DNA from: Alkalicaulis satelles
GTDB lineage: Bacteria; Pseudomonadota; Alphaproteobacteria; Caulobacterales; Maricaulaceae
Assembly (NCBI RefSeq): GCF_008630495.1
Contig: NZ_VWOJ01000001.1
Coordinates: 558,001 to 622,000 of the forward strand
Length of the DNA: 64,000 nucleotides
Direction: 5' to 3'
Numbering within the stretch: the stretch's first letter is position 1; each line of letters opens with the position of its first letter. A model generated the notes under the pieces. It was not told where the DNA came from. It was given only the letters and a program-made list of their open reading frames with translations, and ran no database searches. Below, piece by piece: positions 45,799 through 48,549 of this stretch. Both the position numbers and the translations under genes were made by a program.

Positions 45799-46311
45799 AT
45801 GACCCATTTGCGCCTGACCGCCCTCACCGCCAGCCTCTTGCTCATCGCCGCCTGCAACGAGACTGGAACCGAGCCGCCGGCCGAAACCGGCCCGAATGAC
45901 TGGCTGCACAATCAGGCTGGCGACACCGAACGCTTCGCGCGCCTGCAGTCCCAGCTTGGCGGCTTCAGCCAGTCCATGTGGGAGGTGGGCGAGCGCTATG
46001 AGCGCATGCACGAGGCCATCAGCCGGGAGAATTTCGAGCTGGCGCTCTATCACTGGGACAAGATTGGCGACGCCACCGCGCGCGGGATCGAGCGCCGCCC
46101 CGGCCGCGCCGCCAACGCCCGGGCGATGTTCCTGGATTCAGAGCATGGCGAAGTGCGCGAGCTGCTTGAAGAGCGCACGCTGGCCAGCGCCTGGGCGGGT
46201 TTCGAACGCGCCCATTACAGCTGCCAGTCCTGCCACGAGGCTGAAGACGCCGCGTTCTTCAATGACCAGCCGGTGTTCGACCTGCGCGCGCCTGAGGACT
46301 ATCGCGACTGA
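45799..46311 (+). CDS. Lipoprotein with a single haem c motif
   Basis: A 170-residue protein with a lipobox ending at Cys19 (LLIAAC). The single CxxCH at Cys142-Cys145-His146 would attach haem c. The middle is helical and charged (EVGERYERMHEAISRENFELALYHWDKIGD), reminiscent of four-helix cytochrome-like proteins. That makes a class II or small soluble-cytochrome fold conceivable; I cannot assign one. It is a periplasm-facing lipid-anchored electron carrier or sensor by inference. It stands alone after the M13 gene terminator. Confidence 0.75.
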   Translation: MTHLRLTALTASLLLIAACNETGTEPPAETGPNDWLHNQAGDTERFARLQSQLGGFSQSMWEVGERYERMHEAISRENFELALYHWDKIGDATARGIERRPGRAANARAMFLDSEHGEVRELLEERTLASAWAGFERAHYSCQSCHEAEDAAFFNDQPVFDLRAPEDYRD

Positions 46312-46392
46312 AGCGCCGCATTACGGATGAAACCGTCACCGCCTCGCGCTACTGTGCCAGGCGGGAATCATTCAACACGGAAAAGACACGCC

Positions 46393-46578
46393 ATGACCTG
46401 CGCTTTACGCATCGCCGCCGCCACGCTGCTGGCCGGTTCGTTCCTGGCGCTGAGCGCCTGCAACACCATCCAGGGGATCGGCCGCGACGTCACCCGCACC
46501 GGCGAAGTCCTCGAAGACCTCACCACCGACGCCTCCGACGTGATCGAAACCGCGCCGGAAGTGCAGCCGGCGCCGTGA
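46393..46578 (+). CDS. Entericidin-like small lipoprotein
   Basis: A 61-residue lipoprotein. The signal peptide ends in the lipobox LSAC (Cys23), followed by NTIQGIGRDVTRTGEVLED. This matches the entericidin EcnA/B pattern (CN-T-x-G-x-G-x-D). Enteric entericidins form an antidote/toxin pair linked to stationary-phase lysis; here only one gene is present. A GGAAAAG site precedes ATG 46393. The Thr/Asp/Glu/Pro-rich tail is longer than in E. coli. Confidence 0.75.
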   Translation: MTCALRIAAATLLAGSFLALSACNTIQGIGRDVTRTGEVLEDLTTDASDVIETAPEVQPAP

Positions 46579-46604
46579 CGGGCGAAGGCGGCGCCCGGAC
46601 GGAC

Positions 46605-46904
46605 CGCCCCCCTCACCTTACCTCTCCCCCATGAATGGGGGAGAGGAGGCTTCAGGCGCTGCACATTATCCGGTTGGGCCAGGCGCTTGCATTTTCGAAA
46701 TAAACTCAACGCCCAAGCCCCCTCTCCCCTCCCTGAGGGGAGAGGATAGGGTGAGGGGTGAGAGCGCCAGCGTCTGAAGGTTTATCTCCATCATCCCCCC
46801 AGCGTTTTCCCGGCGCAAGTCGGGATCCAGACCCGCGGTTCTCCTAGACCCCGGCTTACGCCGGGGAAACGCAAGGAGTGGGGGTGAGTTCAGGGGATCG
46901 CCCG
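46605..46904. repeat. Composite palindromic repeat, copy 1
   Basis: Begins CGCCCCCCTCACC. It carries two strong palindromes: 46621-46646 (12-bp arms, CCTCTCCCCCAT) and 46721-46745 (10-bp arms, CCTCTCCCCT, loop CCCTG). It ends with a conserved tail (GTTTATCT..CATCAT..GCAAGGAGTGGGGGTGAGTTCAGG). About 50 bp inside the tail, containing a CCCCGGC/GCCGGGG hairpin, is absent from copy 3. Confidence 0.8.
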
Positions 46905-47006
46905 CGCCCCCTCACCTTAGAGCCAGGGGGCAAGCTTTTTCCGAATAGAACCCGGCGTCGAAGCCTCCTCTCCCCTCTTCAGAGGGGAGAGGTGAGGTGA
47001 GGGGTG
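46905..47006. repeat. Composite palindromic repeat, copy 2 (short)
   Basis: Starts with GCGCCCCCTCACCTTAG and includes a CCGAATAGAAC block and the palindrome 46967-46992 (12-bp arms CCTCTCCCCTCT, TC centre). It stops after GGTGAGGGGTG, lacking the long tail. It ends 35 bp before the DUF559 gene. Confidence 0.8.
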
Positions 47007-47041
47007 TTTCTCCGCACAGGAGACAATGCCACACTGGCCTT

Positions 47042-47419
47042 ATGGCCCGCCCCAAGCCCATCGCCAACGCCCGCCGCCTGCGGCGCGACATGACCCGGTT
47101 CGAGCGGCGCTTGTGGTCGCTCCTGCGCCAGCGGCCCGAGGGACTTAAATTTCGCCGCCAGCATCCCGCCTGCGGCTTCATCGCCGACTTCGCTTGTGTG
47201 GAGGCGCGCCTGATCATTGAGCTCGATGGCGGCCAGCACGCCGATCAGCAAGCCGCCGACGCCCGGCGCACCGCGGTTCTGGAAGCGAACGGCTGGCAGG
47301 TCATGCGCTTCTGGAACCTGACCCTGGACGAGGCGCCGCTGATGGCCGCCGACCAGATCATCGAGACCGCCCTGACGCGCATTCGGGCGTTTCAGTGGGA
47401 ACAGGCGAGCCCGGACTGA
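47042..47419 (+). CDS. DUF559 Vsr-like endonuclease-fold protein
   Basis: A 125-residue protein of the DUF559 family, related to very-short-patch repair/PD-(D/E)XK-type endonucleases. The basic helical N-terminus (RRLRRDMTRFERRLWSLLR) is followed by FIADFAC (Asp49) and IIELDGGQH (Glu60, Asp62, His66), then a late strand WQVMRFWN. Family activity is not settled to my knowledge. ATG 47042 fits the family start, though the nearest AGGAG is ~20 nt away. Repeat copy 2 ends 35 bp upstream and copy 3 begins 2 bp after the TGA, so the gene is embedded in the repeats. Confidence 0.88.
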   Translation: MARPKPIANARRLRRDMTRFERRLWSLLRQRPEGLKFRRQHPACGFIADFACVEARLIIELDGGQHADQQAADARRTAVLEANGWQVMRFWNLTLDEAPLMAADQIIETALTRIRAFQWEQASPD

Positions 47420-47421
47420 CC

Positions 47422-47710
47422 CGCGCCCCCTCACCTTTATCCTTCGCACAGTCGATTGATCCCCCGGATCAATCTTTGTGAGCTCAGCCCCCATGGTCAT
47501 GGGGGAGAGGGGGCTTCTGGCGCCGCGCTTTATCCTTTGAGCCAGGGATCAAGCACTTTCCGAATAGAACTCGGCGTCCAAGCCTCCTCTCCCCTCCCTG
47601 AGGGGAGAGGGTAGGGTGAGGGGTGAGCGGCGTTTGAAGGTTTATCTGCATCATCTCCCCCTAGCGTTTCCCCGGCGCAAGGAGTGGGGGTGAGTTCAGG
47701 TGATCGCCCG
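47422..47710. repeat. Composite palindromic repeat, copy 3
   Basis: Begins CGCGCCCCCTCACCTTTA, 2 bp after the DUF559 stop. It contains the palindromes 47454-47474 (GATTGATC/GATCAATC), 47488-47505 (CCCCCATG/CATGGGGG) and 47586-47610 (CCTCTCCCCT, loop CCCTG). It shares the CCGAATAGAAC block and the long tail with the other copies. Confidence 0.8.
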
Positions 47711-47880
47711 CCCCCCTTATCCGCCCCTGCGATCCCAGCGCGTACACTGCCCCTCGCCATGGCTCATCGCGCATCCCGTCCCGCAAGCATCCGGCGGCCC
47801 GAAAGCGGCCCGGGCCGCGCCGGGAGGGGGATGGTGATAATGATGATAAGACTCGATGCCGGCCCGTTATCGAAAAACTC
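47711..47880. other. Spacer after the repeat cluster
   Basis: No gene supported. It contains a 14-bp GCGGCCCGGGCCGC self-complementary stretch near 47815 and ends at the stop codon of the SRAP gene. Confidence 0.35.
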
Positions 47881-48549
47881 TCACTCGTCCCCTTCGCCCC
47901 CGGCCTCGATCAGCCCGGCATCATTGGCGCGCACCGCATTGACCCGCCGGCTCACCGGACGGGCGCTCAGGGCGCCCTCGTCCAGCGGGGCGAAGAAGGG
48001 TTCGGGGTCCGTGTCCGGATCCAGCCAGGTTTGGAACGCGTCGGGCGCCAGCATCACCGGAACCCGGTCATGCAGCCAGGCGGTGTCCGGCCCGGCCTGG
48101 CGGGTCAGGATGGCGAAGCTGTCGATGCGGTCCGCCCCCTCGCCCCAGCGTTCCCAGAGCCCGGCGAACACCAGGGGCGCGCCGTCGGTGCGGGTGATGT
48201 ACCAGGGCTGCTTGCCGCCGGGCAGGCTGCGCCATTCGTAAAACCCGTCCGCCGGGATCAGCGCCCGGCGCCGTTTGAGCGCGGCGCGGAATGTGGGCTT
48301 GTCCGCTGCGGTCTCGCTGCGCGCATTGATCAGGGGCCTGGCGCCCGCCGGCCCGGTCCTGGACCAGTGCGGCACGAGCCCCCAGCGTATGCAGGTCAGG
48401 CGCGCCCGGCCGCCGGCGCCCCGGCGCACCACGGGCAGGTCCTGGGTCGGGGCGGCGTTCCAGCTGGGCTGCAGATTGGGCCGGTCTTGGCACTCGAACA
48501 AAGCGCGCAACTGGTCCACAGTCAGGGTGATGACATACCGCCCGCACAT
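47881..48549 (-). CDS. SOS response-associated peptidase (SRAP/YedK/HMCES family)
   Basis: A 222-residue protein that traps abasic sites in single-stranded DNA through a covalent link to its N-terminal cysteine. Cys2 follows the initiator Met (MCGRY). Asn in NARSET, Glu in GFYEW and His in LHDRVPV complete the known active site. Length is typical. It is divergent from the NUDIX gene with only 39 bp between starts. No LexA box is evident there. Confidence 0.95.
   Translation of the reverse strand: MCGRYVITLTVDQLRALFECQDRPNLQPSWNAAPTQDLPVVRRGAGGRARLTCIRWGLVPHWSRTGPAGARPLINARSETAADKPTFRAALKRRRALIPADGFYEWRSLPGGKQPWYITRTDGAPLVFAGLWERWGEGADRIDSFAILTRQAGPDTAWLHDRVPVMLAPDAFQTWLDPDTDPEPFFAPLDEGALSARPVSRRVNAVRANDAGLIEAGGEGDE

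Follow-up and report, generated by a model that had tools for sequence, protein, structure and literature searches.

Hairpin repeats with mirrored purine tails beside DUF559 nuclease genes: a candidate cognate nuclease and repeat system

The DUF559 locus and its repeats

The window analysed here (the whole 64,000-nucleotide stretch of the Alkalicaulis satelles genome) encodes a small PD-(D/E)XK nuclease of the DUF559 family, accompanied by three copies of a hairpin repeat and by a second repeat family (Table 1). The composite repeat that the preliminary description had placed in three copies around this gene was confirmed in the sequence, coordinates included, as was its confinement to this locus within the window, where all four intact copies of the palindrome lie. 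The shared tail of ~70 bp noted there is also present, but it is part of the second repeat family (GCGTTTTCCCGGCG...) and also flanks other palindrome copies. Only 7 bases separate the DUF559 stop codon from the CCCCTCACC tail of copy 3, and the small GATTGATCCcccGGATCAATC hairpin of that copy recurs as an identical 21 nt near the orthologue in a related genome (G001).

Table 1 Features of the DUF559 locus, in positions of the window
Feature	Position	Strand	Remarks
Copy 1	46609-46758	.	complete two-hairpin, REPIN-like element: CCCCTCACC tail, hairpin 1, ~75-bp linker, hairpin 2, GGTGAGGGG tail
Hairpin 1 of copy 1	46621-46646	.	CCTCTCCCCCAtgaaTGGGGGAGAGG
Hairpin 2 of copy 1	46721-46745	.	CCTCTCCCCTCcctGAGGGGAGAGG; then mirror tail GGTGAGGGG at 46750-46758
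Second repeat family	46794-46910	.	GCGTTTTCCCGGCG...GGGGGTGAGTTCAGGGGATCGCCCGC; makes the repeat composite; again at 47656-47716
Copy 2	46967-47004	+	half element, second hairpin alone; hairpin 46967-46992, 3-nt linker
Mirror tail of copy 2	46996-47004	+	GGTGAGGGG; faces the DUF559 gene
DUF559 PD-(D/E)XK nuclease gene	47042-47419	+	125 aa; conserved E21, D49, E60, D62, H66
Copy 3	47427-47623	.	CCCCTCACC tail 47427-47435, facing the gene
Extra small hairpin within copy 3	47454-47474	.	GATTGATCCcccGGATCAATC
Hairpins of copy 3	47483-47510; 47586-47610		hairpin 1 (damaged); hairpin 2
Mirror tail of copy 3	47615-47623		GGTGAGGGG

The palindrome CCTCTCCCCN{3,12}GGGGAGAGG occurs 44 times in the 2.89 Mb genome, including the 4 copies of the window, and the reversed control pattern occurs 0 times. 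The window repeat is thus a genome-wide REP-like family that is not private to the locus, and chance can be excluded because of its counts within this genome and across genomes. It commonly takes the form of two hairpins separated by ~75 bp, with CCCCTCACC outside the first and GGTGAGGGG outside the second, and the likeness between copies fades ~10-40 bp past these outer tails. The own-genome sites that we read contain 18 distinct two-hairpin copies (19 rows, with one site listed in both orientations), while some sites carry one hairpin alone. This paired-hairpin layout, two inverted repeats dispersed in the genome in 18 distinct copies, is that of a REPIN. The second repeat family (GCGTTTTCCCGGCG.../CCCCGGCTTNCGCCGGGGAAACGC) adjoins the triplex-type repeat at many of its sites in the same genome. 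A YedK-like gene that neighbours the locus served as a landmark in a search for an empty site and gave little information, because synteny is broken in most relatives.

The window protein matches Pfam PF04480 (E 4.7e-35), and its active site is conserved among 81 copies (E in 81/81, D in 80/81, E in 80/81, D in 80/81, H in 81/81). Its structure model (pLDDT 87) matches NGO0050 of N. gonorrhoeae and the EDxHD homing endonuclease I-Bth0305I (profile E 3.5e-4, Foldseek 2.2e-5), and Vsr more weakly. The protein does not reach the Vsr family cut-off (TIGR00632, 22.1 vs 97.85 bits). Weak matches of the model to mitochondrial ribosome proteins of Tetrahymena and Toxoplasma were also returned (E 0.01 and above). 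Open reading frames upstream of DUF559 can read through the repeat as a linker, for example as PSPLGEGRGGG (L051, L053, L079, L098, L100). Other readings of the locus seem less likely. Matches to defence systems are weak (in PADLOC a partial one, with E 1.8e-4 at best; in NCBIfam antiphage_ProA, with E 1.1e-4 and well short of its cut-off). An Rfam scan of 46300-47900 returned no match above the gathering score, either to an intron around the gene or to another RNA family. Phage or plasmid cargo was rejected, given that relatives of the protein are rare there.

The ratio dN/dS was 0.05-0.16 in 19 of 20 pairs of orthologues or copies, the remaining pair being saturated, which indicates that the DUF559 gene is under purifying selection. 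Such strong selection would suit a housekeeping nuclease that repairs or removes triplex-induced damage or works on mismatches in the manner of Vsr, with flanking repeats that are regulatory or there by chance and that spread through replication errors. It would also be in line with the rarity of relatives on plasmids (43/72,556 records) and phages (2/50,697 records), and with Caulobacter VsrA, a DUF559 protein whose D102, D115 and H119 are spaced like D49, D62 and H66 here and which the consulted part of its report describes as SOS-linked and as a proposed VSP-repair (mismatch-repair, Vsr-like) enzyme (PMC12907096). Nonetheless, we regard this explanation as rather unlikely, since a repair enzyme need not sit between gene-matched copies of its own substrate type, and the hairpin-bounded multi-copy units and the insertions in a conserved gene described below better fit a mobile unit.

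Mirrored purine tails and known triplex motifs

The repeat is built from a pyrimidine arm, a loop and a purine arm, followed by a linker, which is either ~3 nt long or a mini-hairpin, and by a purine tail mirroring that purine arm. In the tail G stays G, and A stays A or becomes T, as in GGGAGAAGG to GGATGAGGG, GGGGAGAGG to GGTGAGGGG and AAAGGGGGA to AGGGGGATT. Stem types include CCTCTCCCC, CCTCCCCCG and TCCCCCTTT. Odd hairpins of the CGAAATTCC type, initially taken as a separate repeat type, proved to be mini-hairpin linkers between purine arm and tail.

We examined this mirror rule in 218 pyrimidine-arm hairpins located within 250 bp of the gene at 104 of 141 loci. The match was at least 8/9 in 203 hairpins and 9/9 in 163, compared with means of 97 and 19 when arms were swapped (highest 113 and 28), a mean of 23 at >=8/9 when flanks were shuffled (highest 39), and 127 and 64 under a direct-repeat rule. 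The linker between arm and tail measured 3 nt in 96 of the 203, the others being mostly longer and sometimes a mini-hairpin. With the tail aligned on G alone, the bases opposite A were A 361, T 248, G 14 and C 8 (609/631 A or T). The direct-order control gave A 151, T 109, G 35 and C 13 (260/308 A or T), and because this control is also biased, part of the A/T bias must come from nearly symmetric arms. Among 48 distinct arm-tail pairs, the bases opposite A were A 67, T 35, G 12 and C 8.

The triplets G.GC, A.AT and T.AT are those of the antiparallel purine-motif triplex. Because B-DNA does not present a mirror symmetry to proteins, and because the tail follows this triplet code, we interpret the repeat as a hairpin onto which a third strand folds back, and we infer that it encodes an antiparallel intramolecular triplex. 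Strand-folding prediction of the repeat returned the hairpin alone.

The repeats consist of a hairpin with a mirrored purine tail obeying G.GC, A.AT and T.AT, and from this mirror code they therefore appear to belong to the known class of orphan intrastrand triplex, PIT or BoxC repeats. Going by the part of their account available to us, Holder et al. 2015 (PMC4666352) catalogued intrastrand triplex motifs, among which TMECO, a stable triplex in vitro, has 3610 occurrences across 262 proteobacterial genomes, with 23 in MG1655. The same part states that TMECO loci are more rearranged than controls, and that in vivo DMS footprinting gave no support for stable triplexes. These motifs (TM/TMECO, PIT, BoxC) are described there with the same plan as our repeats, including a 3-nt loop and a mirrored purine tail, and likewise as a purine-motif class that is intergenic, also found in inverted pairs and proteobacterial in distribution. 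No mobility gene or function is reported around the motifs in that portion of the paper, and searching the text of PMC4666352 for the terms endonuclease, DUF and Vsr gave 0 hits for each. Our data differ from this account, as far as it was available, in that one nuclease family is tied to the motifs, many stem types exist, and stems are matched to the gene that they flank.

Association of the repeats with DUF559 genes

Three partly overlapping sets of loci were compared, with at least five loci recurring (L244-L247 are loci of the order set, and L268 is a locus of the phylum set). The first set derives from 61 genomes (the own genome and 60 relatives), 44 of which carry DUF559, with at least 110 matches listed; it comprises the window and 80 further loci, namely the best 85 of 110 minus 4 situated at the edge of a contig or within another of the stretches used. 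The second comprises 60 loci and draws on 60 of the 145 DUF559-matching genomes of a phylum sample (29 of the same class, 31 of other classes), and the third holds 80 named loci from a scan of public genomes (the best 80 of 373 confirmed). At the 81 loci of the first set, hairpins whose arms are perfect over 9 bp or more reached densities of 3.2 per kb upstream and 6.5 per kb downstream within 100 bp of the gene, and 0.14 and 0.125 at 3.2-9.5 kb, an enrichment of 23-fold and 52-fold, respectively. A hairpin lay within 400 bp of DUF559 at 64 of these loci and on both sides at 36. The second set bears out that DUF559 genes mostly have neighbouring repeats, as 57 of its 60 loci have some hairpin within 300 bp, a few of which are not of the pyrimidine-arm kind.

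For a stricter count, a repeat was required to have an 8-nt all-pyrimidine arm, a perfect partner and a perfect 8-nt mirror tail. Such repeats were found within 300 bp of DUF559 at 64/81, 53/60 and 69/80 loci (186/221 in total), and in 10/486, 15/360 and 16/474 control windows (41/1320 in total) of equal size, taken from the same sequences at least 1.5 kb away. Repeats therefore lie beside DUF559 genes more often than chance would place them, a comparison that the preliminary description had called for, and on these sequence counts we regard the association as firm. An ORF-based control gave a hairpin within 300 bp in 27 of 42 DUF559 genes vs 100 of 766 other ORFs; it lacks the 39 of 81 DUF559 genes missed by the ORF caller, and matched windows were used instead. 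Outside Pseudomonadota, strict copies were present at loci of Leeuwenhoekiella (L279), Planctomycetaceae (L298) and two Anaerolineales (L310, L314), and no strict copy was found at the Flavobacterium (L300) and Planctomycetia (L323) loci of the named set. Several of 14 loci inspected by eye had shorter or imperfect arms.

The arms are also matched to the gene that they flank. In 36 loci with hairpins within 250 bp on both sides, the best pair of upstream and downstream arms was identical in 64%, and arms agreed in 15% of 54 pairs of different DUF559 genes within one genome and in 14% of 2394 pairs from different genomes. The more alike two proteins were, the more alike were their arms (Mantel r 0.19, a value reached by 4 of 2000 permutations). 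Within the genus, CCTCTCCCC accompanies the window gene and its orthologues, and CCTCCCCCG accompanies a second DUF559 gene (L101, L084, L087). Three genomes with one DUF559 gene each, of the first kind and flanked by CCTCTCCCC (G007, G008, G014), have 0 copies of CCTCCCCCG, as does G012 with two DUF559 genes. Against such matching, G011 has 21 copies of CCTCCCCCG and one DUF559 gene of the first kind.

The number of repeats tracks the presence of DUF559, a relation that the preliminary description had proposed to test. Across 398 genomes sampled from the phylum, scored for strong DUF559 matches (E <= 1e-10) and for the pattern CCTCTCCCN{3,8}GGGAGAGGN{2,6}GGWGAGGG, 59 genomes had DUF559 and at least 2 copies, 51 had DUF559 and fewer than 2 (with one repeat type counted), 15 had at least 2 copies without a strong match, and 273 had neither. 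Repeats were thus fewer without a strong match (odds ratio 21, p 6e-26, with related genomes not independent), and 13 informative family strata gave an odds ratio of 24 (p 5e-11), one of them, f4, with two genomes, one each, running the opposite way. Among the 61 genomes, the CCTCCCCCG type averaged 6.4 copies in the 44 DUF559-positive vs 0.8 in the 17 negative genomes (p 0.001), and the CCTTCTCCC type 4.0 vs 0 (p 0.005). Within the genus, the DUF559-free genomes G002, G003 and G004 had 11, 1 and 0 copies of CCTCTCCCC, and the twelve others had 0 to 50.

Some genomes keep repeats without a strong DUF559 match: G197, G351 and G113 have 127, 78 and 39 copies, G351 having a weak match (E 1.3e-5). 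Such genomes would be expected if another mobiliser spread the repeats and DUF559 genes were passengers trapped between two copies. This is already disfavoured, and highly improbable in our judgement, given the linkage, the cognate arms and the copy-number association across the phylum. Nor was the usual candidate found in the genus: the Y1 (HUH)/RAYT transposase PF01797 was detected in 0/15 genus genomes and in 8/61 genomes overall, so that RAYT was dropped as a mobiliser. The earlier proposal of an enzyme class different from RAYT holds here, with a PD-(D/E)XK nuclease and no Y1/RAYT found in any of the 15 genus genomes.

In REP/RAYT systems a conserved GTAG/CGTC tag stands beside the stem. 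Our loci show no conserved GTAG tag, as the stem-side bases vary widely among loci, with GTAG in some copies such as copy 3 of the window. DUF559 loci resemble REP/RAYT in their inverted repeat pairs and in a gene that lies between repeats of its own type and is under purifying selection; they differ by having a PD-(D/E)XK nuclease in place of the Y1 HUH transposase, no fixed GTAG tag, and a mirror tail.

The pairing extends to E. coli, where ycjD (b1289 in K-12) is a DUF559 gene with an adjoining triplex motif of one mismatch (read by eye), the imperfect arm of which was missed by the strict scan. Of 5426 complete E. coli genomes, 3365 carry a match to ycjD. Strain 55989, with 29 motifs in the consulted part of PMC4666352, has ycjD, and in strain IHE3034, with one motif, the interval from fabI to sapF is taken up by an efflux operon and does not contain ycjD (two strains). 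In the available part of another report, ycjD occurs where eefRABCD is absent (PMC12817139). Next to fabI, we observed ycjD or the efflux operon in the same place depending on the E. coli lineage (L243, L324, L376). Copy number in E. coli was approximated by BLAST places, in 60 listed rows of 5422 records, one row being a short record. In 38 of the 60 rows the best match had at least 89% cover and at least 90% identity, with 15-31 places (median 20.5), and 21 other rows had 3-24 places (median 6), 11 of them with <=6. The surroundings of the best match were inspected in H89 and H101 of the 38 and in H109, H114 and H116 of the 21. Two of three strains with the best repeat match away from ycjD still had 15 and 21 matches (the match surroundings alone were examined).

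Multi-copy units and a possible nuclease and repeat system

DUF559 units were found in several copies within one genome, with three in G036 and two each in G031 and G022. These copies are 79-88% alike over 449-556 bp and have different flanks; the shared blocks of G031 and G036 end within ~10 bases of the outer hairpins, and that of G022 ends in such a hairpin. No near-identical transposition was seen among the units compared, and since the best pair is 88% alike, no recent jump with target duplication is visible. One site, in a gene that by its sequence we take to be rsmE, carries an insertion in some genomes and none in others. The site is empty in G000, G005, G006 and G011, holds the repeat pair alone, in frame, in G010, and holds the repeat pair with a gene remnant, also in frame, in G013. 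A whole unit is present in frame in G009 and G026; the unit of G001 is readable, but the upstream part that was matched contains one TGA, and G012 has the whole unit with a broken frame and N in the stretch. The rsmE landmarks were not found in G002, G003, G007, G008 and G014, and G004 gave no match. These empty, repeat-only, remnant and full states, with insertions often in frame, were read at the rsmE loci L355, L357, L363, L365-L368 and L100.

The fact that rsmE and, in E. coli, the fabI-sapF site differ in occupancy between genomes might be explained by a homing-type element, in which DUF559 cuts repeat-free or heterologous alleles, the unit is copied through recombination in an EDxHD-like manner, and the genome-wide repeats are its decayed remains. 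I-Bth0305I is a functional relative with a solved structure. We consider such homing quite improbable, because copies of one gene type stand at unrelated sites within one genome, and because the own genome holds 18 gene-less two-hairpin repeats vs 2 DUF559 genes.

Our best reading is a nuclease and triplex-repeat system that may be analogous to RAYT/REP. DUF559 (the YcjD family) would probably be the cognate nuclease that maintains or spreads the triplex repeats, with the hairpin and its fold-back third strand as recognition signal. The steps that follow, from the formation of the triplex in the cell to how the repeat is bound, cut and copied, are inferred. The repeat, as single-stranded DNA (e.g., on the lagging strand), would fold into an antiparallel purine-motif triplex. 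The 125-aa nuclease would recognise the triplex shape and cut at or beside the repeat. Pairs of repeats could then be copied to new sites through repair or recombination, and rarely the whole hairpin-gene-hairpin unit (~450-550 bp) would be copied too. DUF559 would in this way fill the part that RAYT plays for REPs, using unrelated protein and DNA parts. The preliminary guess that DUF559 is a repeat-linked nuclease is supported by these sequence comparisons.

A broader claim can be put forward only tentatively. DUF559 units might represent a class of mobile element that is new and, at ~450-550 bp, one of the smallest in bacteria, with one structure-specific nuclease gene and triplex-hairpin ends, addressed by a three-stranded shape and having seeded the PIT, BoxC and TM repeats of hundreds of bacteria.

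The triplex repeats themselves are already known, and their pairing with DUF559 appears to be new: we found no link between the two in the open-access literature, searched mostly by titles and abstract openings, and papers outside it could exist. Triplex-forming repeats occur in hundreds of bacterial genomes, including that of E. coli K-12, without a known spreading agent. Our findings suggest that DUF559 is the partner enzyme that these dispersed repeats had long lacked. Linking the widespread DUF559/YcjD nuclease family to them would merge two puzzles into one system that can be tested in E. coli and, if true, would provide an example from nature of an enzyme guided by triple-helical DNA.
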